The notes below the pieces were generated by a model. It had not been told where the DNA came from. It searched no databases and saw nothing but the letters and a program-made list of their open reading frames with translations. This document shows, in pieces, positions 10,999-51,973 of a DNA stretch of 64,000 nt. The translations under genes were made by a program, and so were the position numbers. Source of the stretch: Plumapathes pennacea (lineage: Eukaryota; Cnidaria; Anthozoa; Antipatharia; Myriopathidae); the NCBI GenBank assembly GCA_964036295.1, contig OZ038462.1:13812440-13876439 (forward strand), written 5' to 3'. Numbering within the stretch: the first letter of the stretch is position 1; each line of letters starts with the position of its first letter.

Positions 10999-11110
10999 CT
11001 CTTGAGTACCGGATTGATTAATTCACTCAAGGTAACTTATGGAACATTGTCCAGCAAACACAACAGTGTGAGAGAAACGCTCAAGAAACCACAACGTCGA
11101 AGAACACAAC

Positions 11111-11884: not shown

Positions 11885-13291
11885 AGACGACTTCACCTGG
11901 TGGAAGTAGAAGAAGACAATACTGAAGACGAATTTTCTATTGACATGGTCAGTCACAAAATTGGAACACTAAAAACCAAGAGTGAGTCTAGTGGTGCAAG
12001 TCAATTATTTGCGACCGTGACAGTAAATGACAAAGCGAAAGTCAAGTTCCAGCTGGACTGTGGAGCAACTTGTAACCTGTTACCACTAAAGGATTATTCA
12101 CGAGCCATGGAAAACCCCGATGACCTTTATCTGGAGAGGAGTAGAGCCAAGTTAGCCATGTATAATGGAACTGTTATGTACCCTGTGGGCAAGTGTAAAC
12201 TAAAGTGTACGCGAGATGGGTCCTCACACAGCCTTGAATTTCAAGTTGTCAAAGGAGATATGCGTCCACTGTTAAGTGCAGAAACCTGCCAAAAGTTCAA
12301 GTTCTTGAAAGTGCTGGTGAAGGACCCTCCCCATCAGGTGAATACTGTGATCGATCAAGCAAATCCTGGCGTACCATTGACAGTCAGTCACGACAGCATC
12401 TTGGAGGAATATGCAGAAGTTTTCGAAGGAGTTGGATGTCTCTCCGAGCCCTACCACATCGAAATTGACCCAACGATAAAGCCTACAGTACACCCACCCC
12501 GCAAATTACCCGTAACACTCAGAGAGCTCTTAAAGAAAGAGTTAGAAAGAATGGTGCAGGAAGAAGTCCTGACTCCAGTGAGTGAGCCAACGGACTGGGT
12601 CTCAAGTATGGTGACTGTCGTGAAGCCGAACAAGTTAAGGATTTGTATTGACCCTAAAGACCTCAACAAAGCTATTAAGCGCTCACACTACCCACTCCCA
12701 ACCATTGAGGAAGTTGCCTCCAAACTTAGCAAAGCAAAGGTCTTCTCGGTACTGGATGCGAAAAGTGGTTTTTGGCAAGTGAAACTAGATGATGCCTCCA
12801 GCAGATTAGCCACTTTTAACACACCTTTTGGCCGGTACCGCTGGTTGAGAATGCCCTTTGGCATCTCCTCTGCACCAGAGGAGTTCCAAAAGAGAATAAA
12901 CAACACATTTGGGGATCTCAACGGTGCAGCAGTCATTGCGGATGACCTTTTGGTGTACGGAGAAGGGGACAACATGGAAATGGCTATAGAAGACTATGAC
13001 AAGAACCTCCGGAGTATCCTGAAGCGAGCTAAGGAGAGAAACCTCACCTTCAACAAGGAGAAAGTTCGCCTGAGACTTACCGAAGTACCCTACATTGGCC
13101 ATTTGTTAACAGGAGGAGGCCTGAAAGCAGATCCAAAGAAAGTTGAGGCAATTCTAAATATGCCCAAGCCGACGGATGTACAGTCAGTGAAGAGGTTGCT
13201 GGGCATGGCCAACTACCTTTCAAAGTTCCTTCCCCGGCTATCATCGGTCACGGAGCCATTAAGACGCTTGGAAGACAAAGATGTCGAATGA
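11837..13291 (+). CDS. Pol: aspartic protease and reverse transcriptase
   Basis: 484 codons open from the knuckle region. The protease active site is FQLDCGATC, with catalytic Asp kept and DCG in place of the usual DTG/DSG. RT motifs follow: RICIDPKDLNKAIKR, FSVLDAKSGFWQVKLD, RWLRMPFGISSAPEEFQ and the catalytic VIADD, then the thumb (GHLLTGGGLKADPKKV, RLLGMANYLSKFLPRL). The frame stops at 13289-13291 where RNase H should start; RNase H continues in another frame, indicating a frameshift. RT copies the element RNA into DNA in cytoplasmic particles. Confidence 0.88.
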   Translation: MANHFAVKCRKKSSNTRRLHLVEVEEDNTEDEFSIDMVSHKIGTLKTKSESSGASQLFATVTVNDKAKVKFQLDCGATCNLLPLKDYSRAMENPDDLYLERSRAKLAMYNGTVMYPVGKCKLKCTRDGSSHSLEFQVVKGDMRPLLSAETCQKFKFLKVLVKDPPHQVNTVIDQANPGVPLTVSHDSILEEYAEVFEGVGCLSEPYHIEIDPTIKPTVHPPRKLPVTLRELLKKELERMVQEEVLTPVSEPTDWVSSMVTVVKPNKLRICIDPKDLNKAIKRSHYPLPTIEEVASKLSKAKVFSVLDAKSGFWQVKLDDASSRLATFNTPFGRYRWLRMPFGISSAPEEFQKRINNTFGDLNGAAVIADDLLVYGEGDNMEMAIEDYDKNLRSILKRAKERNLTFNKEKVRLRLTEVPYIGHLLTGGGLKADPKKVEAILNMPKPTDVQSVKRLLGMANYLSKFLPRLSSVTEPLRRLEDKDVE

Positions 13292-13795
13292 CACTGGAAG
13301 AAGTCCACGACAAAGCCATAAGAGAGGTGAAGAGTTTCATTGTAAACCACCCCGTGCTGAGATACTATGACGTAAAAAAGGAAGTAACCCTACAGTGTGA
13401 CGCGTCACAGTCAGGCCTCGGAGCGGTACTGCTACAAGAGGGCCAGCCAGTAGCTTTCACATCAAGGGCACGCACAGCAACAGAGAGAAACTACGCTCAG
13501 ATCGAAAAGGAACTTCTGGCAATCGTACATGCCTGTGAACGGTTTGATCAGTACCTGTTTGGTCGTTATGTCACCGTAGAATCCGACCACAAGCCTTTGG
13601 AGGTTATACTGAAGAAACCACTGTTAGCAGCTCCGAAGCGGCTCTAGCGCATGATGATGCGTCTACAAAACTACACCCTCAAAGTAGTTTACAAGCGAGG
13701 CCAAGAGATGGACATTGCAGATGCCTTAAGCAGGGCTCACTTATCTACACCAGACCAGACAACACAGAAGGAACTGGAATTTATCCGGGGGTAGA
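13288..13795 (+). pseudogene. RNase H domain of Pol
   Basis: First catalytic Asp in LQCDASQSGLGAVLLQ, then ERNYAQIEKELLAIVHACER and the ESDHKPL motif. A TAG at 13645-13647 interrupts the frame; it then reads on through the tail NYTLKVVYKRGQ and ADALSRAHL, the usual linker into integrase, to a stop at 13793-13795. Degrades the RNA strand of the RNA-DNA hybrid in the intact family. Confidence 0.85.
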
Positions 13796-13805
13796 GGAGA
13801 TCAAC

Positions 13806-15121
13806 ATGACTCAGCATCTCTCCATTACCAAAGAGCGCCTCACAGACTTCCAGCAGAAGACCAAAGATGATGCAGCTTTACAACAGCTGAAGCAGACCAT
13901 ACAACTTGGGTGGCCAGGTAACAGAGACGCATTCCCAAGAGAAATCAGGGCATATTACAATTTCCGGGATGAACTGTCCGTACAAGACGAAGTACTCTTC
14001 AAAGGGAGCAGAGTCATAGTCCCAACAGTCATGAGACCAGAGATGGTAAAGAAAATCCATGCAAGCCACATCGGCGTTGAGGGCTGTCTGGGTCGAGCCA
14101 GAGACATCCTGTATTGGCCTGGTATAAATGCAACTATCAGGGATCATGTCTTGGCCTACGGACCTGCAATACCTTTCGCATGGAGCAAGCCAAACAACCC
14201 CTCATGCCGCAGGAAGTACCTGATAGACCATGGTCAAAGGTTGCAGTGGATATGTTCATGCTGAACAGAGAAGAGTATATCATCATGGAGGATGATTACC
14301 CTAACTTCTTCGAGTTTTAACTTCTGCCCGACACGAAGCTCCCAACAGTTCTCACCAGCATGAAGTCACAGTTTGCCAGACATGGCATTCCGAATGAAGT
14401 CAGAACCGATAACGGCCCACAATTTTGCGCTTCAGAATTCCAGAAGTTTGCCAAAGAGTGGGACTTTGAGCACATTACGTCATTGCCATATTATGCTCAA
14501 TCAAACGGCAAAGTAGAGAAAGCATTCAACACTGCTAAACGGATCCTCAAGAAAGCAAAGGCAGACCACAAAGACCCCTACCTAGCATTGCTCGACTGGA
14601 GAAATACGCCGACAGAAGGCCTCAACTCCTCGCCAGTACAGAGACTAATGGGAAGGAGAACCAGGACACTCCTCCCAACCAAAGCCACTCTACTTAAACC
14701 CGAGCTGGTGAAGCCTGCCACTGAGCTCCTAACACAAAAAAGGATGAAACAAGCTCGATACTTCAACAGAGGGGCCAAGACACTGAAAGAGCTCAAGCAA
14801 GGAGACATTGTAAGGATACGACCAGACCCAAAGGATCATACGAAGATATGGAAGAAAGCAGTATGCCTCAGAGAAGTTGCACCAAGATCCTATGAAGTGG
14901 AAGTTGAAAGGAACAGGTACAGGAGAAACAGGAGACACCTCATTGTAACACAAGAGAAGCCAGTAGAGGACTGTTTTATGGATGAACTAGCAGAGCCATC
15001 CTTACCCGAAACACCAGATCCCGTTAGCCCAGACCAGCCAGACACACCGCCTTTGGATGACTCACCTGAAAGAACACCAGAGACTCCGCAGCCTACGGAA
15101 AGAAGATCAGCGAGAGGGTGA
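13806..15121 (+). pseudogene. Integrase, frameshifted
   Basis: The N-terminal His pair of the HHCC zinc domain is in KIHASHIGVEGC; the Cys pair (SCLGLRTCN) is in a different frame, placing a frameshift near 14115-14150. The core has the first Asp in KVAVDMF, the second in RTDNGPQF and the Glu in SNGKVEKAF. A TAA at 14318-14320 breaks the core before the second Asp. The C-terminus (14.7-15.1 kb) is a basic region followed by a Pro/Glu-rich tail and shows no chromodomain. Confidence 0.85.
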
Positions 15122-18985: not shown

Positions 18986-19167
18986 CAATAACACAACCAG
19001 CCAAGTGTTGAGATGTCAGAGCTTCAAAAGGTCAATCAGGTCATATTGTATAATATCCAAAAACTATTATTTACACCTGCTCCGATGTGCGAAATTCCAA
19101 TTAGGCCTAGCTTGGCGGACAAACACTTCGTAAGCATAAATCTAAGGATTTACATCTAGGTGACACT
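18986..19167 (+). repeat. Mosaic dispersed repeat
   Basis: 18986-19047 recurs at 34237-34299; 19047-19167 recurs at about 45466-45586. The latter copy lacks the 1.24-kb insertion present here. Confidence 0.8.
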
Positions 19168-20408
19168 TAGCCTGTTCCAGGCTCTCAGATACTGGAAAAA
19201 GGCGCAAAGAAAAGGCACGATCAACTGGGGTGGAGGCACGGGAGGGCTGGGGCGAGGGAGGGAGGAGGTGGGGAGAGCCTGTAGTAATTCTATTCAGAAC
19301 CCTGTTCCGCCCCTGGCCATGTGATTTTGAAAGATGTCACTCACTGATTAATGGCAAATCGAATTAAATCACAGCGGCTCTGAACTCAGTTGAATTGAAT
19401 CACAGCGGCTGTAAACTGAGCCGAATAAAATCACAGCGGCCCTGAACCCAGTTGAATTAAATCACAGCGGCCCTGAACTCAATTGAATTAAATCACAGCA
19501 GGTCTGAACTCAGCTGATTTAAAACACAGCGACTCTGAACTCAGCCGAATTAAATCACAGCGGCTCTGAACAGAGCCAAATTAAATCACAGCGACTCTGA
19601 ACTGAGCCGAATAAAATCACAGCGACTCTGATCTCAACCGATTTAAGTAACAGCAGGTCTGAACTCAGCCAAATTAAATCACAGCGGCTCTGAACTGAGC
19701 CAAAAAACATCACAGCGACGACTCTGAACTGAGCCGAATTAAATCACAGCGACTCTGAGCACAACCGATTTAAATAAGAGCGGGTCTGAACTCAGCCAAA
19801 TTAAATCACAGGCGGCTCTGAACTGAGCCAAAAAATATCACAGCGACGACTCTGACCTGAGCCGAATTAAATCACAGTGACTCTGATCTCAACCGATTTA
19901 AATAACAGCGGGTCTGAACTGAGCCGAATAAAATCACAGCGGCTCTGAACTGAGCCGAATAAAATCACAGCGACGACTCTGAACTGAGCCGAATAAAATC
20001 ACAGCGACTCTGATCTTAACCGATTTAAATAACAGCGGGTCTGAACTCAGCCGAATTAAATAACAACGACTAAATGTTTCAGGCTTGTCTCTTGCTCTTT
20101 TTTGAGAGAATTAATGTGCGAGAAATCCATAAGCATTTTGCGATTGCGCTGTTTACGTCCATGTTTCACGTGCGAAAAGCGTATGGATAATTTACATATC
20201 AAATATCATATGATTGGCATGTGACAAAAATTGACCAATCAGAGGGTATGCCAAGAGCTGGTATACCGGGACAGGGTTCTGAATAGAATTACTACAGGCT
20301 CTCCCCACCTCCTCCCTCCCTCGCCCCAGCCCTGCCACGCCTCCGCCCCAGTTCATCGCGCCTTTTCTCTGCGCCTTTTTCCAGTATCTGAGAGCCTGGA
20401 ACAGGCTA
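19168..20408. mobile_element. Non-autonomous TIR element with 9-bp target duplication
   Basis: Terminal inverted repeats of about 145 bp (19168-19312 and about 20264-20408), starting TAGCCTGTTCCAGGCTCTCA, flanked by GGTGACACT on both sides (19159-19167 and 20409-20417). The related sequence at about 45578 lacks the insertion and has one copy of the target. A 9-bp duplication with long TIRs points to the Mutator (MULE) group; no transposase is present. The interior is mostly a 31-bp minisatellite. Confidence 0.85.
19366..20070 (+). repeat. 31-bp minisatellite inside the TIR element
   Basis: About 22-23 tandem units built on AATCACAGCGGCTCTGAACT followed by an 11-bp variable part (such as GAGCCGAATTA). 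Some units carry a 3-bp insertion (GACGACTCTG), appearing periodically. No coding potential. Confidence 0.9.
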
Positions 20409-20500
20409 GGTGACACTACTCTTGGTGACACATTCTTGGTGACACACTCTTGGTGACACACTTGGTGACACACTTAGCGTCACACTCCTAGCCGCTCTCT
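20409..20500 (+). repeat. Short GGTGACACxxTCTT tandem repeat
   Basis: Units of 9-15 bp (GGTGACACACTCTT) repeated five to six times; a longer array is at about 45578-45676. Confidence 0.75.
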
Positions 20501-20521: not shown

Positions 20522-20766
20522 ACAATCTCGGACAAAAGTGTTGACACATTCTTCCCTCCCCCATTCAATATTGATAAATTAATTATTTAGCAACGGTTTT
20601 CTGTCAAAGTCTTACCGGAACTCTTCCAAATTCAAGCTACAACATTGATACGGGGAGGGGGGTGATTAAAAGCAGTTTTCTTTGGAACTGGTGACTCACA
20701 GAATGGTAAATTTGACAAAAGTGCGACATTTAAAGCATGTGTCAACACATTTTGTCCGGGATTGTC
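20522..20766 (+). mobile_element. ~240-bp MITE, copy 1
   Basis: Starts ACAATCTCGGACAAAAGTGT and ends with the near reverse complement (TTTTGTCCGGGATTGT). Related copies lie at 23788-24030 and, inverted and diverged, at about 45910-46145. No transposase. Confidence 0.75.
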
Positions 20767-22596: not shown

Positions 22597-23787
22597 CCTC
22601 GAGTTAGGAATTGACAGTTGAATGAAGCATCCGCTTACAGTAATTGAATAAATGCGCGTCGAGTCAGATCATGTTTCAAGAGAAGATTGCTTTAGATCGT
22701 AAGAGTTTGTGTGTTTTTTATGATCCTATACGGGGCCCCGTATTTCCATCGAATTGCGTGATTCAACAGTGGGCAATGCGACCTGTTCGAGATCAGCACG
22801 GGTGAAAGTCACTCAAAAATAGACAAATAATACATCACGACAAGCGTACATACAACGAGCAATACATTACTAAGTGCGAAGCGTGCCCCAAATAGAGCGA
22901 CTGAGTGAAGGGAGAAGTCGACTACACAACTGCTTTTTTGTCGGTGAAAGTTTTTAAGTGTCGCTCAACTTCAAAAGCTTGATAAAATGACATGTAACGC
23001 AACTGAATCAGATGATTACGTTAATTAGTCTAATTGGTAAAAATTACGCACGCTCTCGCGTCAGGTAAATTTCACTAAAAAATGGAAAAAATTCTTACAA
23101 ACACTTGGAATGGCATAAAGAGTGATATTTTATCCAAATACAATATAAAACTATAGCTTTTGTTGCATTTATTTAGGATTTCCAGCGGTTTACACTTTCA
23201 ACGGTTTACACCACAGAGTGAAAGAGGATTAGACAGATTCTATTTTAATTCATAGTGTAAACCGTGTAAACCGTGTAAACCGTGTCATATTTCAACCTCT
23301 TCGGATCATAAAATTCTACATAGACAACCATTTGCAATACATTTAAGACCATTTTCAATATGTCATGGCCCTTTTCTGGGATTTCGGAGTCGATATTGTC
23401 AACCTTTCGTATATCTCCTGTGTAGAACACGGTTCTGGAAATGCAATTAGGTTGCTTTCCAGGGCACGGAACGGCACCAATTTAATATTGTACTTTCGCA
23501 AAAGGTGCTCTTATTTCTTAATTTGAAACATGTGTACTCATATAACCATCTTCATGAAATTTTGGCAGTCGTCGCTTTCTGAGTATCAAAATCCGATATA
23601 AGTGAATGAACTACTGGCTTCGGCCTATAAACGAATCTTACTTTCTGCCTCTGGCATCCCAAAATACACTACCGCTGCAACCAATAGCCTTCAGAATTGC
23701 ATTCAACCCTCGAATTTAACAAAATAGAAGGCTTTTTACGACTCTTAGCGATGACAGAAGTTACTTTCTTGCTATTTTGTATTCGGA
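22597..23787. other. No gene seen
   Basis: AT-rich. It includes a small direct repeat of GTGTAAACC units at 23257-23287 and otherwise nothing recognisable. Confidence 0.5.
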
Positions 23788-24030
23788 CAATCTCGGACAA
23801 AAGTGTTGACACATTCTCCCCTCCCCCAATTCAATGTTGATAAATTAATTATTTAGCAACGGTTTTCTGTCAAAGTCTTAGCGGAACTGTTCCAAATTCA
23901 AGCTAAAACATTGATACGGGGAGGGGGTGATTAAAAGCAGTTTTCTTTGGAACTGGTGACTCACAGCATGGTAGTTTTGACAAAAGTACGAGATTTAAAG
24001 CATGTGTCAAAACATTTTGTCCGGGATTAT
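23788..24030 (+). mobile_element. ~240-bp MITE, copy 2
   Basis: Second copy of the repeat at 20522-20766 with about 90% similarity by eye. Its right end abuts the LTR remnant of the Gypsy element and may have removed the LTR's 5' part. Confidence 0.75.
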
Positions 24031-24115
24031 AGTCCAGAATAAACGAGATCCAGTGAAGACCTAGCGAGTCCCCATAAAATCTGCTACGACACAAAAGTGC
24101 CCAGTAACAGATTTC

Positions 24116-24135
24116 TGGTGGAGAATCCGGGCATC
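24116..24135 (+). other. Primer-binding-site-like leader
   Basis: TGGTGGAGAATCCGGGCATC, a few bases after a GTAACA LTR-type end; nearly identical to 237-256. Confidence 0.55.
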
Positions 24136-24431
24136 TGATCCCGGAAAGAGACCTCTTCGCGAAGGACCTGGTAGGAAGATTTCACTTCTTGATTGTGAGT
24201 GTGTTAAGATTTAAGGAAACCAAGCCAGGTTTTATTTAAATTAGCTCATTGTAACGTAACTGCATTAGTACTTTAAATGAGAGCGAAACAGACGAGGACA
24301 TAACGGAGGTAGGCACCTATATCATATATTGTAGGTTACGTTGTCCAAATGTTCACTATTAACTGATCGACTTTTACTCGGTTGAACGACTAGCGTCTTG
24401 AATTTTGCTGTGAGTCACTTCTATTTTACAT

Positions 24432-25265
24432 TTGGGTTTAAGTTCGATTATCAAACTGAATACCCGTAGTGGAAAACGATTGCTCAGTTGGGTTTTGCCA
24501 AGAAAGCCTAAAGCGAACATCAAAGAGTGCGCTGCGTGTGTTAAAGAACAACGCTTACAGAGAACTATAGAACAGGCCCAATCAGTTTCTCGCGAAACAG
24601 AACCATTAATTGACTTAACAACGCCAGAACTAACCCCAACAAACGAACTTGATAATACAGAAACGACAGAATCAAACGACATGTCAGAAGAGGGGCAACC
24701 AAACCCACTATCACCTGAAGATGTTTTTAGACTAATAAGCGAACAAAATGAACGGTTTTCTGAACAGTGGATTAGGCAGGCAGACTCACTAGCCAGGTTA
24801 GTTGAACATTCACTCCAGTCAGCCGCAATTTCAACTCCTAAATATAACGGAGTCAAATTACCCACATTCTCAGGGAAATCACATGAAGATGTAAACGATT
24901 TTCTAACTAATTTTGATCGCGCTGGGGATTTTCACGCATGGAATGACTCAAAGAAAGTGCAAGCGTTACCACTTCATCTAAAAGACAATGCTAACACATG
25001 GTTTAGCACTACACACGGGTTGATAGAGAAATCATACAAGGAGTTAGTACAAGCCTTGAAAAATCAGTTTCACTCAGCTTCAGATAAATGGGTATTGCGA
25101 CAGAAATTGAACGAACGGAAACAATTACCAATTGAAACAGCATCAGAATACGCCGCGGACATAGGGCGAATTCGTCAAAGAGTAGATATGCCATCTTCAG
25201 AATGTGTGAATCATTTCACACATTCTGAAGATGGCACAGAAGACTTGGGACACAGAAGGAATTAG
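24432..25265 (+). pseudogene. Gag, truncated by an inverted duplication
   Basis: 277 codons. The N-terminus is basic, followed by an acidic Thr/Glu-rich region; residues about 140-250 form a Retrotrans_gag capsid segment (LPTFSGKSHEDVNDFLTNFD, ANTWFSTTHG, ERKQLPIETASEYAADIGRI). At residue ~253 (MPSSECVN) the DNA folds back on itself (25190-25235) and the zinc-knuckle nucleocapsid region is missing. The related copy at 0.5-1.1 kb keeps that missing portion, showing what was lost. Gag would build the particle; this version lacks the nucleic-acid-binding end. Confidence 0.75.
25190..25235. repeat. Perfect 21-bp hairpin at the gag break
   Basis: Arms 25190-25210 and 25215-25235 are exact reverse complements around a TCAT loop. 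The left arm is genuine gag sequence; the right arm is its inverted copy and replaces gag downstream. Typical of template-switch or foldback deletion events. Confidence 0.9.
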
Positions 25266-25297: not shown

Positions 25298-25705
25298 ATG
25301 ACGTGTACAAAAAGTACACCGGTAGTCGAAGAGCAAATACAGCATAGTTATAAGCAAACACAGGCCGTGAATGCTAAACAGGGTTCCGACTCAGATGAAA
25401 AGGCAAACAGTAAAGATTTATTTACAGAATTAACTCAAAATGCTGTTCAGTTCTCAACATCAGCTAACAATCTGTCGATTGATGGTTCAATTTCTGGAAG
25501 AAAATTTTCTTTTCTCATTGACACCGGCGCTAACGTGAGTACCATCAAAGCGGACGTATGGCGCCAATTGCCTCCACCGACCAAGCATACTCCTATACAA
25601 ACTGAGTTTAATCAAATCAAGGCAGTGAATGGCGATGTGATTCCTGTGCTGGGCCAGGTTGAAATTCCGTTTGAGATACAATCATATATCCATACAAAGT
25701 TTTAG
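25298..25705 (+). pseudogene. Aspartic protease, truncated
   Basis: The retropepsin core reads NLSIDGSISGRKFSFLIDTG with the catalytic DTG, then ANVSTIKADVW and the second half INAVNGDV-like region (KAVNGDVIPVLGQVEIPF). The frame stops at 25705 right where the domain should close; an abrupt jump to the end of RT follows. The protease would process Gag-Pol. Upstream linker codons are Gln/Ser/Lys-rich. Confidence 0.7.
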
Positions 25706-25710: not shown

Positions 25711-26475
25711 CAAGAGATAGCAGTTTTTAAGAGGTTACGCGAAGCTAACGTACGATTGAAACCCAGTAAGTGTCATTTTGTCAAACCTGAGGTCGATTAT
25801 CTAGGCGACCTGGTCTCTCAACACGGGTTACAACCTAATCCTGCCAAAGTTCGCGCCGTACAAGAGTTTCCAAAGCGAAAGAACACCACACATGTGAGAA
25901 GTATCTTAGGGTTAGCTAATTACTATCGCCGTTTTATTCAAGGATTTGCACAAATCGCAGCGCCATTGAATAAGCTCACTAGTAAGAATGTAAAATTCAA
26001 TTGGGATGAATCTTGTCAAGTAGCTTTTGATCAGCTCAAACGAGCTCTCACTTCAGCCCCAATACTAGCTTACCCTAATTTTACCTTGCCATTTCATCTT
26101 TATGTGGATGCCAGCCAAGACGGCATAGGTTTAACCTTGGGACAAATTGTTCACGGCAAAGAAGTAGCAATCGCCTATGCCGGTCGAGTCCTAAACAAAG
26201 CCGAACGCAACTATAGCGCAACAGAACGTGAAGCCCTTGCAGTAATAGATGGAATCAAACGTTTTCAGCCATATCTCTCAGGACAGAAATTCGTTATACA
26301 CACTGATCACGCAGCCTTGAAATGGCTCATGTCTATCCAAGACCCAAAAGGTCGATTAGCACGCTGGAGTTTATTGATTCAAAACTTTGATTTTGATATA
26401 ATTCATAGACCAGGCAAACCTAATGGAAACGCTGATGCTCTTTCTCGTCACACGCACGTGGGACTTGTAGCGTGA
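25711..26475 (+). pseudogene. RT thumb remnant plus RNase H
   Basis: Starts within the RT palm/thumb (KPSKCHFVKPEVDYLGDLVS, RSILGLANYYRRFIQGFA); the fingers and palm, including the YxDD active site, are deleted. RNase H is complete: first Asp in HLYVDASQDGIGLTL, Glu in SATEREALAVIDGIK, Asp in FVIHTDHAALKWLM, and the tail NADALSRHTH. The frame is open for 239 codons and ends at TGA 26473-26475, overlapping the integrase frame. Confidence 0.85.
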
Positions 26476-27649
26476 ATGTAATTGACACTCTAGGAGTTCA
26501 AACGGAGCGAATTTTCGAATATCAACGCCGTGACCCAGACCTTGCCAACATGATTGATTACCTTGAACAAGACCATTTACCCCACAATCAAGCTCGTGCT
26601 CGCAGAATTCTTCTTTCAGCAGACATGTTTTATCTAGGGCAAGATCAATTGTTGTATCGCGTAGAAACCGCAGAGAAGCGAACGACCAAAGGTTGCTACA
26701 CACAACTCGTAATTCCAAACGCACTACGATATGAAATTTTAGTGAACGCACATGATGAGCTCGCAGGGGGGCACTGAGGTCTTTTCAAAACGTATGAGAA
26801 GATTCACACTAAATACTACTGGAAGGGAATGTACAAGGACGTGGAACATTGGGTTCGCTCTTGTGTTAATTGTGCAACACGCAAACACCGTAGAAACAAA
26901 CGTAAAGCGCCCCTTCTTTTAATTCCAGTGGAAGGTCCATTCGACAGAATCGCGGTAGACTGTTTGGGGCCCCTTCCCAAAACACATGACGGTAATAAGT
27001 ATATTGTTGTGTTCACCGACTACCTCACTCGATGGGTTGAAGCATTTCCACTTCCAAGCATCGAAGCAACCCAAATTGATCGTCTGACTACACAGGAAAT
27101 CATTCCTCGACATGGCGCACCACGTACGCTGCTTTCAGATCGGGGAAAAAACTTTTTGTCACTCTTAGTTTCTGAAATTTGTAGACTATTTAGCATTCGA
27201 AAATTGAACACCACGGCATATCTTCCACAAACAGACGGCGTTGTAGAGCGTTTTAATGCAACCCTGTGTCAAACACTCTCCATGTATGTTAGTCACAACC
27301 AAAAGGACTGGGACCAATTCATTGATGCAGCCTTCTTTGCATATTGGACGTCGCCGTCCGAAACAACCCAGGAAACACCTTTTTACCTCCTTTATGGACG
27401 GGAGCCCAGACTCCCAGTGGACACGCGTTTGTTAACCCCAACTGATCCAACCAGTTCAATAGCTGAGCATCGTAGTCGTATTGTGAGACAGATTGAGATA
27501 GGTCAGAGAATTGCCAAGGAAAACACACAGCGAGCTCAACAGAAAATGAAAGATCAGTATGACAAAACGGCAAAAGATCCAACATTTTGCGAAGGAGAAA
27601 GAGTATGGGTTTTTACACCTAAGTCTTTTAAGGTGGCTCCATAGGGTAT
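26472..27649 (+). pseudogene. Integrase (zinc domain and DDE core), interrupted
   Basis: The HHCC domain begins with HDELAGGH; a TGA at 26775-26777 immediately follows its second His, and the Cys pair (SCVNCATRK) is in the next open segment, 26829-27644. The DDE core is complete in sequence: Asp in RIAVDCLGPLPK, Asp in LLSDRGKNF, Glu in TDGVVERFNATL. After GERVWVFTPKSF the gene is cut by the TTAA transposon and resumes at 29204. The core still has its catalytic residues; the breaks are one stop and the insertion. Confidence 0.88.
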
Positions 27650-29203
27650 TTCCCTGCACTTGCTTGTATTTAGTTTATGACACCAAAACCGTCATATTTT
27701 CATTTCATTATATTCTTTCTTCATCAAAATTGCAGGGTAGATGTTTCGAAAGGTCTGTTGGGTATACGTCTTACTTTTGTCACTCTAGTGTGGTTTCCAT
27801 GGAAACAATACGTCCTTGAAATAAAGGTCTTCTACCCCATTTTCAAACTTTCTGCTCTATTTTCTGGAGTTTTCTTCGGTGAATTTTTCTGAAACTTTCG
27901 GTATGTTTAGAAATTTGTATAAGGTAAACATAACTGTGAAAAAAAGTGGTGTTAGAGGAGCGGATTCCGAGCTAATTGGCAATTTATGTTTTTTGCAAAT
28001 AAAAAAAATTCTGTTCCATAAATTTCCATTAAAATCAAATATTACAAAACCGGATATAATCTTCGTTTGCCTGCAAAATTTAAGACAGATTCACCGAAGG
28101 AAACTCGAGAAAAATGCAGAGAAAAACTTGATATTTTACGTGCGTATTGCGCCATCAAATGCAAAATAATGACTCGACAAGATCGACAAGTGCGCATGCG
28201 TTAGCCGTAGTCCTTGCGCGTGAAAACAAGTTGTGCATGTAAACACGAGGAGAAGGCGGCGATCGCACGCCTGCAAGTTTTCTTGGTGCGAAGCTAAAAG
28301 GAAACACCATATGCAAATCCTAAATTTCTGTCTTGAGAAGCTCGTACTGGATATGTCAGCCACGAATTATGCTGTGCGAACTACTGTTGGCGAAGTCTCG
28401 AACAATTTGAGGGTGATAGCTGTTCAACAACTCAATCCTTTTCAATACAAAGCCGTGAAGACCGTTCGAAAGTCGTCAGTTCAAGCCGTCGTATGCTAGT
28501 CCACTAGCTCCCAACAAGTTTGTTGGCAGTTGTTTCCCATCACGTTCATTCATACTTATTCAGTACAGTTCGTGAATATTTAGTTTTGCGACACGATCAC
28601 CTGAGATAATATGCCACAGACTGACACGGGATCAAACTCTGCAGGTTAGTAGGATTTGCAAAGCTTCATAACAACGCCAATAATTTGTCTAAGTTTGCTT
28701 ACTTTCAAGAATTGTTGTCAGTGTTGTGACTAGGCCGAATGTACTAGTGGCTTGTCCATTGCAACTGGATGATTGCCGAAATGACCGTTCGAGCCGCGTT
28801 TGTGACGGCTGTTCATTTCAAAGTCAAACAGAATAAAATCTGAATAGTAGAACTTCTTCATCGTTGTGTTGCTTGTTTAGTTATTGGCCTGACAGGATGT
28901 GCAGAAACAATACTTTCAAACTAATTCAGTAGAGTTATATACATTCGAAGGTAAAGTGATAAAGATCGGCGATCAAGTAAAGCCGGCGTGTACTTAGTTT
29001 GCTTGAAAGGCTTGCAAGTTTGGTTTCTTCGTGACTCGAAGAACCGTGCACGCATCGCGGTAAACTGTTTTTATTCCGAGATTTTAGAATTTCCTGTTAA
29101 ATTCAGATTTCCTCCAGAGAATTACGACAGTCGGGTTTATATTTCATTGTAATTTTGGTTCCCACGCGAAATTGCGTCTGAAAACCCTATGGAGCCACCT
29201 TAA
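27628..29203. mobile_element. TTAA-flanked non-autonomous transposon
   Basis: Interior 27632-29199 has terminal inverted repeats GGTGGCTCCATAGGGT (16 bp) and is flanked on both sides by TTAA (27628-27631, 29200-29203). One TTAA in the integrase gene would leave its frame uninterrupted, so the target duplication is clear. TTAA targeting is the piggyBac signature; no transposase is encoded and the short ORFs inside are unremarkable. Confidence 0.85.
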
Positions 29204-29720
29204 AGGTCTCACAAAGAAGCTTTTACACAGCTGGCACGGTCCATATCGCATTGTTGAACAACTTAGTCCCGTTCATTACAGACTTCGCACCTTTAGTAAT
29301 CGCCCTGTAACGCCACCGTTCATGCTAATCGCATGAAACATTTTTATGACCCTACGGATCGGCCAATCGAACCCCCAGAGCAGGACATTCTAGATAAACT
29401 GTACTTAGGTTTAGAGGACATTCCAACAGATAGTTTTGACTTGACAACGGACGAACCGCCCAGTCCGGCACCAGTAGTGCCACCAATAGTTCCAACACCA
29501 GCTGTTGATCCTATTGTTTACAATGACCACAACTTCCACAGCAACCCAACATTGACAACGAAACTGTTTTCCATGCAGAAACACTGTTACGTCACCGCAT
29601 GCGGAATGGTCACACTGAATACTTAGTGAAATGGGCCGGATATCCCATCTCTGAAGCCACCTGGGAACCAGAAACAAATCTTTTAGATCCTCGTCTCTTA
29701 GAAGAATACCGACAGACTTA
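29204..29720 (+). pseudogene. Integrase C-terminus with chromodomain
   Basis: After the insertion, the typical Gypsy GPF/Y-like region appears ([20 protein letters not shown]), then a Pro-rich linker and a chromodomain at about 29580-29717 (EYLVKWAGYPISEATWEPET). At least one frameshift lies in the linker (around 29550), since the Pro-rich stretch and the chromodomain use different frames. The chromodomain is normally used to steer integration toward marked chromatin. Confidence 0.8.
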
Positions 29721-29812
29721 ACTCGCGGCATCTTCACCAACACATACACACACTCTACTCGACACACCAGTAATTTCCATTGTTCTCAATAGGTTTTACC
29801 ACAAATTGCACT

Positions 29813-30574
29813 ATGCCGCGACACAACGAAACGCGTGTCATGATCCTGGACCATTCTTTCGTAAGAAGTTTGGAAACTTTCCTTAATCAAGCAGCGAAGC
29901 CTTGTCTCCTCAACTGCCTACATACCACAAACGGCATCAGACTTGAGTTTCGCGGGGTTGGAGGACAAACGGTCGCACAATTGAAACAAATCAACCCACG
30001 TCACATACGACAATTTTGCCCTCATATTTTGATCCTTGAAATCGGGTCAAATAACCTCTGTAATTCACATATCTCACCCGAGCAATTAGTAGAGGCTATC
30101 ACGGCCTTCGCCGACTTCTGTCACTGTCACCTAAATGTACCACTCATCTTATTGAACCAAATCTCGAAACGTACTCAGATACCACCTACAGTAGCTTCAT
30201 ACAATGACCGCGTACTGCGCACAAATTACCTCCTGCACAAGAATTTTCAAGCCAGGCCATTTGTCACGTTTTGGTACCATTGCCTGCTAACACGAGCCAC
30301 ATTTAACATTTTTGCATACGACGGTGTTCACCTTAATTATGTCGGAAACCACTTACTGGCACACAGCTACCAATCCACTATAACATTCGGACGAAACCAG
30401 CTGAGACCGTTGTGGTCTAATTTCCGCCAAATTACTTCTCAAAGGCACAAATGGCATTCCAAACCCTTACGTGGGCTACACTCAGTTGCCTCCTTTTGCA
30501 CACCGCGCCACTACAAGCGGACGAGATTGGGGCGACGGGGAAACATGTCACATTCTACCCATCATCACTCATGA
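29813..30574 (+). CDS. SGNH/GDSL-type hydrolase
   Basis: 253 codons from the ATG at 29813, 92 nt after the chromodomain stop. The SGNH blocks are present in order: block I VMILDHSFVRSL with nucleophile Ser15, block II RGVGGQTV (Gly48-Gly51), block III LEIGSNNLC (Asn80/81), and block V YDGVHLNYVGNH with Asp170 and His173. All four consensus catalytic or oxyanion residues are therefore retained; block I has LDHS rather than GDS. The last ~60 residues are basic. SGNH domains are known in ORFs of some retroelements (CR1 LINEs, Ngaro/DIRS). Esterase activity and substrate are unknown. The frame overlaps the start of the envelope-like gene by 124 nt. Intact. Confidence 0.7.
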   Translation: MPRHNETRVMILDHSFVRSLETFLNQAAKPCLLNCLHTTNGIRLEFRGVGGQTVAQLKQINPRHIRQFCPHILILEIGSNNLCNSHISPEQLVEAITAFADFCHCHLNVPLILLNQISKRTQIPPTVASYNDRVLRTNYLLHKNFQARPFVTFWYHCLLTRATFNIFAYDGVHLNYVGNHLLAHSYQSTITFGRNQLRPLWSNFRQITSQRHKWHSKPLRGLHSVASFCTPRHYKRTRLGRRGNMSHSTHHHS

Positions 30575-32470
30575 TCGGCCATAACGTACAACCATTACTG
30601 TTCTTTTCAGAAACCAAATTAATGAATCTCGTTACTGACTTACGTGTGATTCCCCCAGGTCCGACCTCCCGTATGACAAACAACTGTTCTGACGAAAAAA
30701 AGACATTCTTCTCTAACCTACTGTCTAACATGCAGCACACGCAACACGTAATCAATAGAGATATCTCGTTACCAGCCTTTTCAAACCTTTTAGAATGTGA
30801 TTCATACTTACGCCGTTATTATGCATACACAACTGGTTTACCTAGTCGTATGATTTGTCCCCGTATTTACCAACCTAGTCTCGACGCATGCAAGGCATGG
30901 GCATTAAAATCGTGCACAGATATTACCTTACACGAGAAAATGTTCTTACAGTCGTCACATCGTTCCCGTCGCAGTAGCTGGATGTGCCACGCTGGGTTAT
31001 TTGGCCTTTTTTGCAAAATTGGCGAATCTATGGGCAACATTTGCGAGCCAAATCATGCCCAAAACCTTGTATCGACATTGAAGACACTTTCACGAACCCT
31101 TCGGGTGTCCCAGGCACTTATTCACTTAGTCAACGGCAAAATAGTATACGTAATTAAAACAACTGACGCCTTAACGACAAAAGTCAATCGCCTCATTCAT
31201 GATGCGAACATCATGGAAACTACCTTTACACAATGGCAAGTTCAACTAAATCGTTTTGCAGCGGGTACCAAATGTCACGATGGCCTTCTTTTCGAATTCT
31301 TATCAAAACACTCGCAGGCCGTCAACATGGCCTTTGCGTCTTTTCTGCGACTCACAGAAATTCAGGACGTACTTCACCAATTAACCAGCCTCGCCAAAAG
31401 GTAGATCTTTGGTTACTCAATGTTACCTCGGTTTCTCGATACAGAAATCCACACCAAATTACAATCAGACTCAACGCTACTATTCACGGCCCAAGCCCTA
31501 CAGAACGGTTTTTCCGTTCTGCTCAACCAAAAGGTTGATACTTAACATCATGGACAACACATTACCACTAGCTTATTACTAACCATTCCGGAAATCCCTA
31601 ATCTTGATGCGTTTTGCACTGTTGAATATCTGTCAGCACTTAAGTTTAAGGCATCCAATATTTGTTATACCGGTCCAGTGACCGCCACAAATTTAGCATT
31701 GATTTCGCGTCCAAACTCTAAGCAGATAGCGACGACCGAAATGTTGCAGAAATGCTACCATGACGACACTACTTTTGTATGTCCAACACATGTACTAGAT
31801 TTTGCTCAAAATGTTACCTGGTTGGGTTTTCTTTTTAATCCAAACACAAAACTCCCTTTTCCACGACACCACATTCGTGCAAAAGACTGCACAAAACTCC
31901 ACCCGCTAGTCCACCTCGGAGGACGCTCATACCTCTCCACCACGTCAACCCCACTGGCACTGTCCTCTGGATCCATGGTGACCTCGCCTTTTATGGTGTA
32001 CTATTTCCCCTGTAATGTAACTTTTCGGGAATGGTAACTAGCTTGGGGCATTGCCCAGCACGCACGACCCTCTTAGTACCTATGGTTAGCAGTATGGTTA
32101 GCAGGGGCTCACACCGTACTCAATACACTATGTTCCATGGACCAAAGCTGCTTCGGCAGATGAGACTCTGCACTTACACCACACATCGTTGGACATACCA
32201 CCTCCCACGACCCTTAAAAAATCCATCCTCGGGGCCCTAGGCACGACCTACCACACCCTCGACGGACAATTCACGACTACCTTGGATCAAGCAGACCATC
32301 AGATTGACACCATCAAAGAGACTACAACCACCAATACCACAGATATGCTGGTCTATACAGCTCTGAGTATCGCAATAGTGACCCTACTAGCCCAAATCGG
32401 CGTCATTATCTCCCTCAGACGCCGCCCTGCTGTTCCAGAACACCAAAGTTGCCCACCGGCCAGCATCTAG
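30451..32470 (+). pseudogene. Envelope-like fusion glycoprotein, broken
   Basis: The first open segment (30451-31404, 317 codons) begins with a clear signal peptide (MAFQTLTWATLSCLLLHTAP, cut near residue 23) and a Cys-containing ectodomain. It then has a furin-type site RSRR (171-174) followed by a Gly/Phe-rich hydrophobic stretch (AGLFGLFCKIGESMG, 181-195) and a heptad-like helical region (about 205-270). This is the layout of class I-like fusion proteins, including errantivirus/baculovirus F. Stops at 31402-31404 and 31543-31545 interrupt the same frame, which ends at 32035-32037. After a frame change, 32189-32470 carries a predicted membrane anchor (residues 53-75) and a basic RRRP tail. 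N-glycosylation sequons (NCS, NVTW, NVTF) occur. A 12-bp in-frame duplication lies at about 32083-32106. Confidence 0.65.
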
Positions 32471-32835
32471 ATTTATCTACCTTGAGCGACCACCTAAACG
32501 AACTATGTTTCTGTTTGGTAGACCGTCACTCTCCTGTTTTATTCCTCCCATGTTGTCGCCGCTCCTCACATGAACTCTGCATCGCCCACTGGCTCCAGTT
32601 TGCATCTACCTGTCCCTTCTGTCGGGGCCAACTACGTGACAACCCCGCCTTCCCGCTACGGTTGACCGGTGTCCACCCGGCAATTGCCCACCTCGCCCAC
32701 CTCATCGGGGCACCTCAACCCCGTTGGCAACCCGGTCGTCCATTTCCGTGGGACTGGGTCCGCGCTCAAATCCCTTTAGCAGTATATAATCGACAACGGG
32801 CCGAATACGGCAACGCCCTCAGACGCCCGGGGTAA
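32449..32835 (+). CDS. RING-finger-like accessory protein
   Basis: 128 codons, overlapping the end of the envelope frame by 22 nt. Residues 20-60 resemble a RING-H2 finger: Cys20/Cys22, then LPCCRRSSHELCIAHWL (Cys35, His41, Cys44) and STCPFCRG (Cys55, Cys58). The LPC...H..C...WL...CPFCR pattern is typical of E3 ubiquitin ligases. The first Cys pair is spaced C-x-C rather than C-x2-C, which may be a defect or a variant. The remainder is Pro/Arg-rich with no recognised domain. Intact; the role in the element is unknown, possibly modification of host proteins. Confidence 0.6.
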   Translation: MPTGQHLDLSTLSDHLNELCFCLVDRHSPVLFLPCCRRSSHELCIAHWLQFASTCPFCRGQLRDNPAFPLRLTGVHPAIAHLAHLIGAPQPRWQPGRPFPWDWVRAQIPLAVYNRQRAEYGNALRRPG

Positions 32836-33881
32836 CTAACACCTCCCACGACACTTCGGACAGTCCAGACAAGACATTCCCAGCATCTCAACACTCAAGA
32901 CTTTCAAGACATTTCCCTGTATGAACACTGACATTCTACGAACACTTACTTTTGCTAGCTCAGCGTATACCTTTCATCATTCCTTTAGTATGGTAGGTTA
33001 GCACAGCCTCTTTCCAACAACTTTTTTGCATGGCCGCATGTTCTGTTTTATCACATGCTTTTCTTCCATTCTTGCCCATAGGAAATACCGAACAAAACCA
33101 AAAACAAATCTATTAAAATACCATAAGAAAACATAAAATAAGCAGTAAGCAGTAAGATACGAATATTTATGATTTCGCATACTACAATTATCGTTTTCAT
33201 TTAGCAGAATGTCAATTAGTTTTCAGTTCCTTGCTTTCCAGCGGGACTCAATCACGTATCGTATGTTAGTCACATACTCTTTGGAAAATTATACCCAAAA
33301 TCATGTAAAATTGATTAGAAAAATTTGAGCAAATCCAGCATGTAACAAGTGACATGCTATCCAAAATAATATATACTTAATTGTATGATTGTCCGGCATG
33401 TAAACGATGTAACATGCCTTTCGTATTATTATTTAGCGCAAAAATAGGGCTTTCAGTTATCATTTCATATAATTAAGGTTTCATGTTCATGTTTATTAAT
33501 TATGGCCTTCGCTTCCTCTTGCCTTACTCAAACAACTCTTGCGTATGCAATCACAAGACTATCTTGTTTCAGACGAATTTTCTGCTAAATTGATTCTACT
33601 CTCCTTTTAAGTCGCCGGAGTCGACATTACTACACAGGGAGGTAATGTTAAGAGAAAACCGGCACGATTTCGGAGAGCAATTTTGGAATAACATTTTGGC
33701 CGACTTTGAAAGGAACGTTTGGTTGCAAACGGAAGTAATAGAAAGTATAATCATTAAGAAAAGAAATTCACTTGGACAGTTTAATTGTGACCACATGCTA
33801 TTCTGAATGTCAACACATTTTTCTATACATTCCGGAATCTTTCTAGTCGAACGGAGTCGACTCTCGTAAAAAAGGGAGTAA
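32836..33881 (+). other. 3' untranslated region of the retroelement
   Basis: AT-rich without ORFs. Two related purine-rich segments, each preceded by GGAGTCGAC and followed by TAATGTTA (33609-33651 and 33850-33886), resemble a duplicated polypurine tract. Confidence 0.4.
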
Positions 33882-34225
33882 TGTTATAGTGTAAATCTAG
33901 CTAATCTTCCCGTAGTTGGAAACGAATAAATTTAGTGAATTAGAGTTCTGTTGTTGACACTCGGAAGAGCCCAGGTACCACTGCTAAGTAAATAGTTACT
34001 AAGAGCCTTTAGAATTAGAATTCATTGGCTAATTAAATAGCCATTACTTGGTAGAAATAGATTAATCCTGCTGAACCAACATCCATTAGGTTAATTACGA
34101 TAGTTAATGCTGAAGGCTCTGCCTGGTCAAATACCTATCTGGGAACCATTATATCCAATTCTATGGAAGAGCAGATGTGCAACCACAGCTGCGTCCTTGA
34201 ACCAAGGTAGACCTTTTAGTGTGAA
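33882..34225 (+). repeat. Probable 3' LTR, truncated
   Basis: Starts TGTTATAGTGTAAATC immediately after AAAAAAGGGAGTAA, as expected after a polypurine tract. The 5' LTR is too truncated to confirm identity, and the 3' end runs into a dispersed repeat near 34230. Confidence 0.3.
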
Positions 34226-39070: not shown

Positions 39071-40405
39071 TCACCTGAAATGATGAGACAGGAGCCTTGT
39101 GTCTGCCCGACGGAACAGTTTGGTTGTGGGATGAAGCATCAAGGACAAATAGCCATGATTTGGCAGAATGGCAGTAAAGTGAGCTGCTGCAAAGAACCCC
39201 AAGATAGGTTTGCAACCCACTAAGAATCCTCCTGGCTTCTGATATATGAAATGGTGCCTAGTGTGATCTGCTCCTTCCTCAAAAAGCTCCGCCAGTTGAG
39301 CACTGTTTTGGAATGGATAAGGGAAGGAGCCATCCCTGAGACGGAACGATGAGTAGACATATATTGCTCTGTTCAGGGCAAGGGAAAGTGCATGGAGATG
39401 AAACTTTTCACCCCAAGCTCCCCATGTGGCAGCTGTTTTGACAATGTCTGCAAATTTGTCATCATTACACTCAAGGCTGAGGAGCTGCCTGAAGTACTGC
39501 TCATTCTCTACCATTGTCAGCACGGTTAGGAGTTGCAGGTCAGCTGTCAAATCTTCTGTGCCTATCTGCCCCTGTGAAACCATATGCCACAGGCAATTGC
39601 CATCAGGACTGGTTGGAACTGCTGTGTAATGAGTTTGTACAACAGGATGGAGCTGTGCCATGATGTGCCTTTCCAAAACCTGCATGCCATCATAGATTGC
39701 TGGTTCAATGCCTCGCACTTGATCAAGTTGATGATACAGTGATTCCCTTTCTGAGCGGATAAAATCTTTGATGAAGTGAACATTTGTAACATCAGAGTGC
39801 AATATTTGGGTGCTGACTTTGCATTTTCTTGGTTTATTCTTTGGCACACTGCTTGAAACAGTTGGCTTGGAGACTTTTGGCTGGACCACAGGGTTTGCAC
39901 ATCTGAATTTGCTGCATGTGTGTCTTGCATTTACAGCCAGTAGGTCGTCTTTAGCTATCCTGTTTTGGGGACTTTTAGCCTTACCAATAGACTGAAGTCT
40001 GTGAAAGCTCATTGGCTGGAAGAGCACATGGTCAAGGGAACGTAGTCTCGATGCTGCAACAAAGGTGCATCCAGTTGCTTTCTCACCTTTACCCAGGTCA
40101 ATCACTACCTTAGATAGGGTCTGACCTTGTGACTTGTGGATAGTCATGGCATATCGGAGTCTCAGGGGGACCTGAAGGTGTGAAAGTCTGCTACCATGGG
40201 AGTCCCACTCAAACAGTTGTAGTGGTACTGGAATTGCGGTCTTTCCTTCATGAAAGGGGGGTCCAGTGTAGTTTAGAAAATTTACAAGGACAGCAATGGG
40301 AAGATCTGGTGGTCCAGTGTTTGCAGCAAAGAGAATGTCGTGTACTGTACCAGGGGAACCATTACACAGGCCCATTTGTTGCGAAAGGTTGGGTGTGAGC
40401 ATCAC
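39071..40405 (-). pseudogene. PIF1 helicase C-terminus and OTU protease domain
   Basis: 444 codons. Residues 1-150 hold helicase motifs (GLCNGSPGTV, and motif VI-like LRLRYAMTIHKSQGQTLSKV). Residues about 255-415 form an OTU cysteine protease domain: the PDGNCLWHMVS box with Asp/Cys near 266-269, and HFTAILP with the catalytic His near 408. Both catalytic residues remain. In Helentrons the OTU domain is part of the RepHel polyprotein; it may remove ubiquitin, although no role in transposition is established. Joined to the upstream helicase piece by a frameshift near 40402. Confidence 0.85.
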
Positions 40406-41355
40406 CTGTGCTCCCTTTGTGAGGAAGATATCTGGGTCCAGGCCACCAGCATCATCTGACTTGGCAGAAGCTGCACCTGTGCCAGAGTGTTTGCAGAGAT
40501 GCGAGCAATGGGGGTGTTAAGGCTCTTCAACTTCACATAGTTGTATTCAGCCACACTCTGTTTATCAAAAAACAGTCTGACTGCTTCTTTTAACTCGGCC
40601 TCGTTGCTGGTGCTTGGTGACCTTGTAAATAGTTTCCTCCAGTCGTCTTCTATTGACTGGCCATTTCTCAATCTCAACAGCAGGCCACGAAAAGCTGCTG
40701 CTTCAGGGTTGTTTCCTGCTTGCCGCATGACTTGTTTTAGCAGAACAACTGTGTCAAACATTTTGTAAACGGCGTGGCCTTGGTCACCAAGAACTGATCC
40801 TGTAGCAGCTGCATAAATTGGTCTGTCACCAACAGGTGGGAGTTGGCCAAAGTCACCAATCAAGATGACAGATAGTCCCCCAAAGGGTTCAGCAAGCTTG
40901 CCTGTTCCTTGGCGTAGCCTCCTGTCAACCCACCCCATGCTCCTTTGGCCCAACATTGACATTTCATCTATGAGGATGTAATGCTTTCCTTCCAGAATCA
41001 TCTGAAGCCGCTGCAGTGACTGTCCCTGTAATTCTTTGTTTCTCTGCTCTCGTACAGGGAGCTGCAAAACAGAGTGGATGGTGCAGTCATGGATGTTGAA
41101 TCCTGCCATTCCTGTTGTTCCTGTTAGAACACATTCCTCTTTGAGCACATCTGCAATAGCACTAATGAGGTATGAATTACCAGTGCCAGCAGTCCCTGAA
41201 ATGATCCATGAGCCATTGGACACTGAATCGTGCTTGAACCTTCCTTTTTTGCTGAGCAACCCACTGTGGACAGGATCGTAGGAGAGGAGGGGGAAGTTCA
41301 GAAGCTCCACTGCTCCAGTCATGGTTGTCTGTCTGATCTGTGGGATTATTCTCAT
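40402..41355 (-). pseudogene. PIF1-family helicase N-terminal part with altered Walker A
   Basis: 317 codons. The Walker A box reads ISGTAGTGNSYL: the invariant Lys that contacts ATP phosphates is Asn. Walker B (ILIDEMSMLGQRSM) and motif III (VILIGDFGQLPPVGD) are intact. In working Helitrons the helicase unwinds the donor strand 5'-3'. The Lys loss should abolish ATP hydrolysis, so this copy is inactive even apart from its frameshifts. Confidence 0.85.
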
Positions 41356-41554
41356 AGTGCTGGTTCAGGCGGCACAAGAGCATCCACTCTTCACATGTCT
41401 CTTCTGGGGGTGGTGGTGGTGGTTCATCTTCTGACTCAGGTGTGACTAAGCAGCGCTGAGCACTCTCAATTTCAGATGCAACCTTTGGGATGTGCTCTAG
41501 TGCACATTCTGTGGACAGGAACGCACTGTATGCTCTGATGAAGACATTGCTGCA

Positions 41555-43155
41555 TTATTCTTCCCCATCCCATGAATTCTGAGGCTCTCCACTCCATGGC
41601 TTGTACTTGATCAGCTGATATTTGCAGTACAGAGAGTAGTTCTTCCCAGCTGGATTGGATGAAAATGATGGATAAGCCCTTATAAGAACCTCATTGGCCC
41701 GTGGCCTTGGAATGCCGCTGACGACATTATACTTGGAGGCAAATTCCATGAAGCTTAGATTCGATATTCCAGGTAAGCGTTCCTCCCACTGTTCTCGCTT
41801 GGAGTAGACACCGAGCATTGATTGGTCCAATACTTCACCTGGTTCGCTGCCTTCCTTGCTCTGCTTATGGTTAACTTTGCGACTTTCATCACGTGACACA
41901 GTAACAAAGAAATAGGTGCAGCGGTACAGGGGCTCCTGCAGTAGAAGGTGGGCTGTTTCCTGTGCTGCCATGTAACAATCCCCAGCAACTTTGATCATTG
42001 CTTTCTTCAGTGCAGATGATGCCTGGGCAGTGTCCTGAAGCCGGTCTACACAGGTCTTCAATATGCCGGTTACTGGCTGAGATCGCGGTTCTCCCTTGGC
42101 TATGTACTTGGCCATGTAGCGTGCACATGGATCGACATCCACAACAATCTGGAGGTCAACATTATCACGCTCGTGCTGCAGCATGACCCGATTGTGGGAA
42201 TTGAGGCGGCCATCATTGCGCTTTGTGACAAGGGTGTCCCTGATCTTATCTTCACTTATCTCCTCAAAAGTGACACCAGTTTCTTCTCTCAGCTCTTGGG
42301 GATAGCCAAACGGACAGCTAGGCTCTTCTCCTGCTTTCTTGCGACGAAGGCAGTAGGCTGCATTACAACGGGTATGCCGCTCAACAGAGTTGACCAGTTG
42401 ATGGTAATCCTCATCCTCATCTTCCACACCTCTGAAGGGAACAGAGGATGGGTGTGGATCTGGTGCTGACCAGTCATTGAAGTCTGGCATTGCCTCATTC
42501 ATTGTTGTCAACAGCAAATCTGCATATTCGACTGCTGTTGCCTTGGCTTGGTTGCCCTCTGCAATTCTTGCCAGCAGCTCTTCGCGATTAGCGTTAGGAT
42601 CAGAGAGCATATTCTGTGCTTCCCAGCCCTTGGCAGCTTTGGTGATGAGGTCACAAAGGCCAGGGTCATTCTTCAGCTGAGCACAGCCATGGGCATGAAT
42701 AGATCCATGTGCTTGCCATTCATACCAGTGCCAACTTGCATCAAGGCACTCATACATCCAGCGGTTGATGAATTCTGGCAGTCTGATGAGAAGTACCAAT
42801 CTGTTAGATGGAGATTGTTGATAGTGGCTTGCATATGCATACCACGGGTTGCACCCTCTGGCTACTGCAGTAGGCGATGGAGATCTGGCCAGTAGTTATC
42901 TGCTGCACTGACAGTGAAGAAGAAGGTAGGGTGTCCCTTCTGGTCAAACAGTGCTTCACGTTCCTGTAGGCAATGGAACCAGTACTGCCTGGTGCCCTGG
43001 ATCTTGGTGGCATACATCTGTACACGGTTCATCAGTTGTTTGGCTGACATATCTTTCACCATAGAACGCAGCTCTTCTATTGTGAGATTAGCATCTTTGG
43101 GGTGCTGCTTCAGGTAGATGTTTGCTTGGGATAACAACTGGTGCCTGTGCTTCAT
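41555..43155 (-). pseudogene. HUH Rep endonuclease of the Helitron
   Basis: Two frames: 42862-43155 covers the start of the Rep (helitron-like N) domain ([18 protein letters not shown]), and 41555-42799 the catalytic part. HUH is GSIHAHG (His35, His37 of the second frame); the two-Tyr motif is [13 protein letters not shown] near residues 228 and 232. A Cys/His cluster ([20 protein letters not shown]) lies between them. Rep nicks and rejoins DNA through tyrosine. The residues needed are present, but a frameshift near 42800-42860 separates the domain start. Confidence 0.88.
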
Positions 43156-51949: not shown

Positions 51950-51973
51950 AACATAATGTAATAAATCAAAAAC

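Follow-up and report, generated by a model that had tools for sequence, protein, structure and literature searches.

The window analyzed here is a stretch of 64,000 nucleotides from the antipatharian Plumapathes pennacea (assembly GCA_964036295.1, contig OZ038462.1, positions 13,812,440 to 13,876,439 of the forward strand). It is rich in mobile elements, and positions 24.0 kb to about 34.2 kb constitute one decayed Ty3/Gypsy element in + orientation. Its pol gene ends in a chromodomain, behind which lie, in order, an SGNH-type hydrolase open reading frame (ORF), an envelope-like gene (env), a RING-like ORF and a 3' polypurine tract (PPT). We consider it likely that a retrovirus-like Ty3/Gypsy lineage left this now inactive copy, with an SGNH esterase and a class I-type fusion glycoprotein downstream of pol, and the RING-like ORF behind them. 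The features from the end of pol onward are as follows.

29530..29721, + strand: chromodomain, end of pol (PF00385, E 2.3e-16; matched within 29530-29718, frame stop at 29721)
29813..30574, + strand: SGNH hydrolase ORF (PF13472, E 1.4e-5, 26.2 bits, under the cut-off of 32.9; homologues to E 5.6e-24)
30451..31404, + strand: env, N-terminal part, with leader, first subunit, RSRR at residues 171-174, presumed fusion segment and helical region; ends at a premature stop
31405..32037, + strand: env, middle part, in the same frame as the N-terminal part; second in-frame stop near 31543
32183..32467, + strand: env, C-terminal part, in a different frame, with stalk and membrane anchor (42% identity over 74 residues to the relative P0038)
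32449..32835, + strand: RING-like ORF (zf-RING_2, E 1.1e-6, 29.2 bits against a cut-off of 27.3; matched part 32503-32625)
33868..33881, + strand: PPT-like site, with a candidate start of the 3' long terminal repeat (LTR) at 33882, about 1 kb past the RING-like ORF

The first Met of the SGNH ORF, at 29813, is 91 bases past the chromodomain stop, and the end of this ORF (30574) overlaps the start of env (30451) by 124 bases in a different frame. The end of the C-terminal env piece (32467) falls inside the RING-like frame, which is open from 32308. No LTR-like boundary was noticed from the chromodomain through SGNH, env and RING to the PPT. Frame lengths were compared with the longest stop-to-stop frame, among all six, in each of 500 dinucleotide shuffles of 29700-33900. 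Lengths of 327, 266, 175 and 163 codons were reached in 0, 2, 55 and 84 shuffles, respectively, the third count being that for the RING-like ORF; length alone therefore makes env and SGNH improbable as chance frames, but not RING. Between 29151 and 33150, from the GPY/F-type module of the integrase to past the RING-like ORF, the coding strand is C-rich, in contrast to the gag-integrase part of the same element.

A preliminary description of this DNA had proposed a chromodomain integrase and an SGNH-type hydrolase downstream of it, and both were borne out, the first by its Pfam match and the second by homologues and by eye. The domain searches of each ORF that it had called for gave a clear chromodomain match and placed the RING-like ORF above its cut-off; the SGNH match stayed under its cut-off, and env received no name from Pfam. 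By eye, the SGNH ORF has the catalytic S, G, N and H in four blocks (HSFV, GVGG, GSNN and DGVH). A search with this ORF alone gave 5 matches among 114 candidates. The D, G, H and L of the DG-x-HL block are invariant in 9 of 9 alignment rows. The Ser of block I occurs in 6 of the 8 rows covering that position and is replaced by Ala in P0002 and P0003, while the block reads DHS in the window ORF versus GHS or GHA in the seven other covering rows; on both counts catalysis is likely but not assured. Since no leader is apparent at the N-terminus, the esterase is probably cytosolic; by eye, neither this ORF nor the SGNH part of its relatives has an apparent leader or membrane anchor.

The env-like gene is broken: its frame changes at least twice, and it contains two in-frame stops. 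All three of its pieces match relatives, of which 35 were found at 37-74% identity. The piece at 31546-32034 is 64% identical to P0038 over 160 residues, and the R-x-x-R cleavage motif is kept in 27 of the 28 relatives that cover the cleavage site. By this conservation of sequence, env is a member of a genuine protein family. The 19-residue hydropathy of the anchor in the C-terminal part reaches 2.38. This anchor piece was misplaced by MAFFT in alignment A2, and the pairwise comparison with P0038 was relied on instead. The sequence features of class I fusion proteins are present, namely a leader, a furin site with fusion segment, helical repeats and a C-terminal anchor, the leader and fusion segment being judged by eye or position. 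In a low-confidence structural model of env, class I viral fusion proteins made up 49 of the 50 structural matches listed and held ranks 1-18 with Foldseek; the model of the C-terminal part was unusable (predicted local distance difference test score 45.3). Together with the low-confidence model, these features suggest that env may resemble a furin-cleaved, membrane-anchored class I fusion glycoprotein.

Searches for a named envelope family were negative. Among the Pfam matches of 31 family members at E 0.1 there was no env family, although divergence could hide one, and neither Pfam at a maximum E of 1 (seven relatives) nor PHROGs (four proteins) gave a fusion-protein env family. A sequence search of the PDB yielded two non-significant matches, to myosin (E 1.2) and to an influenza HA2 fragment (E 1.8). 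No related locus was confirmed in viral contigs, searched with env, SGNH, RING and two alignments, or in genome contigs, searched with the env alignment; pattern matches failed tblastn.

Three of the 35 env relatives, namely P0037, P0040 and P0020, have SGNH sequence directly ahead of env. P0037 and P0040 have a GDSL domain in this place, with a Pfam score under the cut-off in the former and over it in the latter. Both align with the window SGNH ORF from the same first Met, at identities of 49% (P0037) and 36% (P0040). P0020 has only the SGNH end ahead of env, 41% identical to the window SGNH over 81 residues. By eye, P0040 and P0020 look like one family and P0037 like another, so that the pair seemingly occurs in two families besides that of the window. 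The remaining 32 relatives have no SGNH part; because SGNH is in a separate frame in the window, this lack is uninformative either way. At the level of sequence, SGNH-env is a recurring cassette. Its junction to a chromodomain pol was observed at this single locus.

The remainder of the element consists of the following features.

24029..24109, + strand: presumed 5' LTR remnant, 3' part only; it ends in ..GTAACA 6 bases before the primer-binding-site-like sequence, as in the related remnant at 189-364
24116..24135, + strand: primer-binding-site (PBS)-like sequence, GGTGGAGAATC, a motif common to the related element at 238; no tRNA assigned
24414..25265, + strand: gag, capsid (PF03732, 2.7e-8; PF19259, 2.3e-7); 3' end apparently lost
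25298..25705, + strand: aspartic protease (PF13975, 1.1e-6)
25747..26475, + strand: end of reverse transcriptase (RT) and RNase H (PF17917, 8.6e-35; PF17919, 4.8e-34); RT core missing upstream
26472..27627, + strand: integrase, H2C2 zinc finger and rve core (PF17921, 4.7e-13; PF00665, 1.8e-8); in-frame stop at 26775-26777
27632..29199, no strand assigned: inserted non-autonomous DNA transposon, foreign to the retroelement, with GGTGGCTCCATAGGGT inverted ends and a TTAA duplication (27628-27631 / 29200-29203)
29127..29336, + strand: stretch with integrase C-terminal GPY/F-type module, matched part from about 29178 (PF22938, 5.1e-6, 26.9 bits against a cut-off of 27; PF24626, 1.5e-4, under cut-off)

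As seen from Pfam matches and reading frames, the Ty3/Gypsy order of gag, protease, RT tail with RNase H, and integrase is present, minus the RT core, for which no Pfam match was obtained in the ORFs scanned; a gap lies between the protease and the RT tail. The chromodomain stands at the C-terminus of the integrase, behind the GPY/F-type module, as in a chromovirus. The insert of 1,568 bp, which resembles a piggyBac-type non-autonomous transposon, splits the C-terminal part of the integrase, and arithmetic places both sides in the same reading frame. This copy is dead: the RT core is lost, a transposon sits in pol, the integrase has a stop and env is broken. Upstream, the 5' LTR remnant is abutted by a dispersed repeat (23787-24028, 95% identical to 20522-20763), by which the LTR was apparently truncated. 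At the other end, two similar GTCGAC...GGGAG-TAATGTTA motifs at 33638 and 33875 are 237 bases apart, and the PPT-like site may be duplicated.

Other mobile sequences were seen in the window. A related Gypsy remnant at 189-2495 has gag and protease DNA 66-71% identical to the studied element over short stretches, and the surroundings of the PBS recur in it at 189-364 with 70% identity. The SGNH-env block had no match in the window before 24200. A second Gypsy-like element lies at 11072-15121 (RT, E 4.6e-23; integrase core, 1.5e-8), with a gag-like ORF recognized by eye. On the - strand, 39074-42895 contains a PIF1 helicase (E 2.9e-23) and, in an adjacent ORF, an OTU protease domain (E 1.2e-9); this is presumably a Helitron carrying OTU. 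The ORF at 41558-42895 had no Pfam match. The segments at 8612-9931 and 60822-62442, presumably pieces of Polinton/Maverick elements, contain a DNA polymerase B of viral or organellar type (E 1.8e-13), together with a capsid N-terminal domain (2.8e-4) and an rve integrase (2e-7), both under their cut-offs. At 19160-20416, 150-nucleotide inverted repeats, 93% complementary, surround a tandem array of 31-nucleotide period, and at 51965-52507 there is an ORF of a repeated Cys/His unit (CKDCKGKGICEHNKVRY) with no Pfam match at E 1e-3. Rfam and tRNA scans of the window gave no matches.

If the locus is what we take it to be, intact relatives would copy themselves via gag-pol and form particles. As in envelope-bearing Gypsy elements, their env would be cleaved by a furin-like protease and would fuse with a target cell, and it could thereby carry the element across cell membranes, from soma to germline or from host to host. 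The chromodomain may guide integration to marked chromatin, and the RING ORF, if expressed, could be an E3-ligase-like accessory. The esterase might hydrolyze lipids or esters during the trafficking of particles or ribonucleoproteins (RNPs), at membrane steps, as the available part of one report proposes for other retroelement esterases (PMC5408684).

Several observations weigh against this interpretation or parts of it; they concern env, the RING-like ORF and the unity of the locus. The envelope gene of the preliminary description holds in its RSRR motif, its anchor and its relatives, but it is not intact, and the hydropathy of two of its segments is moderate: the leader peaks at 1.37, and when 15-residue stretches of the N-terminal env ORF are ranked by hydrophobicity, the putative fusion segment is not in the top five.

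The RING-like ORF contains no Met from stop to stop. By eye its zinc-ligand spacing is non-canonical, the first Cys pair being C-x-C and the central ligands departing from the usual pattern, and its length was reached in the shuffles as given above. The protein search found no relative, only one candidate with shared words, and none was confirmed in the viral contigs. The frame could thus be a chance or captured C-rich one behind env and lie outside the gene set of the element; we take this possibility seriously and rate it at somewhat short of even. Its zf-RING_2 match is, however, above the curated cut-off, and it lies on the C-rich strand that also encodes SGNH and env, with a GC skew of -0.26. 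What had been announced as a RING finger therefore stands as a domain match, with unusual ligands; the ORF could represent the remains of a gene, could be a frame entered through splicing or a frameshift, or could be no gene at all. The proposal that all three ORFs form an accessory block of one Gypsy element fared likewise: the block lies between chromodomain and PPT and SGNH-env recurs, but the membership of RING is unsupported, no relative having been found. The infectious lineage with host-manipulating accessory genes that the preliminary description also suggested is conjectural.

A composite origin was also considered: the SGNH-env block, with or without RING, would stem from another element or a virus, brought into an ordinary chromodomain Gypsy by insertion or recombination, and this copy alone would combine it with this pol. 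GC skew shifts from between -0.005 and -0.065 over gag to integrase to between -0.18 and -0.35 over GPY/F to RING, which speaks for such an origin. No other copy with both pol and the block was seen, and no LTR pair was detected at the locus by blastn or by local alignment against shuffles. The last result may be due to the apparent cut in the 5' LTR at the dispersed repeat. The shift in composition, however, begins within pol, at GPY/F and the chromodomain, and not at the start of SGNH, and comparable skew is found elsewhere in the window (57.5-58.5 kb). Moreover, no boundary was noticed in the 91 bases between chromodomain and SGNH, and the PPT and candidate LTR start follow the block. A composite locus is therefore unlikely in our view, and a nested element is less likely than a single one.

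A bolder form of the single-element interpretation would make this an undescribed infectious chromodomain Gypsy lineage with an entry cassette of esterase and class I fusion protein, RING as third partner, and an esterase acting directly in entry or exit, after the manner of hemagglutinin-esterase and spike; we give this rather little credence. Toro- and coronavirus hemagglutinin-esterases are the model for a receptor-destroying esterase, and a two-protein entry system in which an extracellular SGNH esterase of this kind stood beside the class I fusion protein would account for the repeated pairing with a class I-like env, but it is very improbable, as neither leader nor anchor is apparent by eye in the SGNH ORF or in the SGNH part of its relatives.

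Single-element descent with an esterase-env cassette can be compared with several known systems, each described here from the available part of its source. The bdelloid rotifer LTR retrotransposons Vesta, Juno and TelKA are Gypsy-like and carry an ORF3 downstream of pol (PMC5408684). Like the window block, ORF3 encodes a GDSL/SGNH esterase, or else an env resembling the paramyxovirus F protein, in which an RxxR site, a fusion peptide, a coiled coil and a transmembrane segment are recognized. In that account, however, no chromodomain was found in any bdelloid lineage, no RING is reported, and env (TelKA) and GDSL (Vesta) are in separate clades, whereas in the window both are found together behind a chromodomain, with a RING-like ORF. 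The non-LTR elements CR1, L2 and RTEX also carry an SGNH/GDSL esterase, whose suggested role is in assembling RNPs and in membrane-dependent transport; it lies upstream of pol, unlike that of the window, and its capture was independent of the bdelloid one (PMC5408684). The giant planarian Gypsy element Burro/GYPSM1 has env homology and many accessory motifs, among them AIR1, which is described as having a RING zinc finger, linked to ubiquitination and apoptosis; its env, however, is between gag and pol in a giant polyprotein, and no SGNH or chromodomain is named (PMC6431247). LTR elements can acquire additional ORFs, either between pol and env or behind env (PMC6431247, where the encoded proteins are unnamed in the part available); the positions of the accessory ORFs here are therefore not new. 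Troyka, described without an envelope, and the Kuafuorterviruses, for which env is not mentioned, were set aside as parallels on the available part of their sources. In what was available of PMC9025612 and PMC7599744, SGNH comes up solely where work on a Helitron-captured gene is cited.

Envelope capture is the route by which retroelements become viruses, and the uptake of esterases by unrelated retroelements is still unexplained. An esterase and a fusion protein in one recurring cassette would link both captures and make the role of the esterase testable: if it invariably accompanies env, it probably acts when particles enter or leave cells, and if it also occurs without env, this is less likely. 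The locus also adds an env family for which no covering Pfam model was found.

Envelope-carrying Gypsy elements are reported to be widespread in metazoans, from cnidarians, ctenophores and tunicates to insects (PMC13172572 and PMC12859917, in the parts available, citing Chary and Hayashi 2025). Like errantiviruses and these metazoan elements, the window element has an env gene; its env matched no Pfam env family. In the open-access literature searched, a scope that leaves Chary and Hayashi 2025 outside, no described element with SGNH and env behind a chromodomain was found. What surprises in an element of this kind is thus not the presence of an env or of an additional ORF but the combination of esterase, env and chromodomain.
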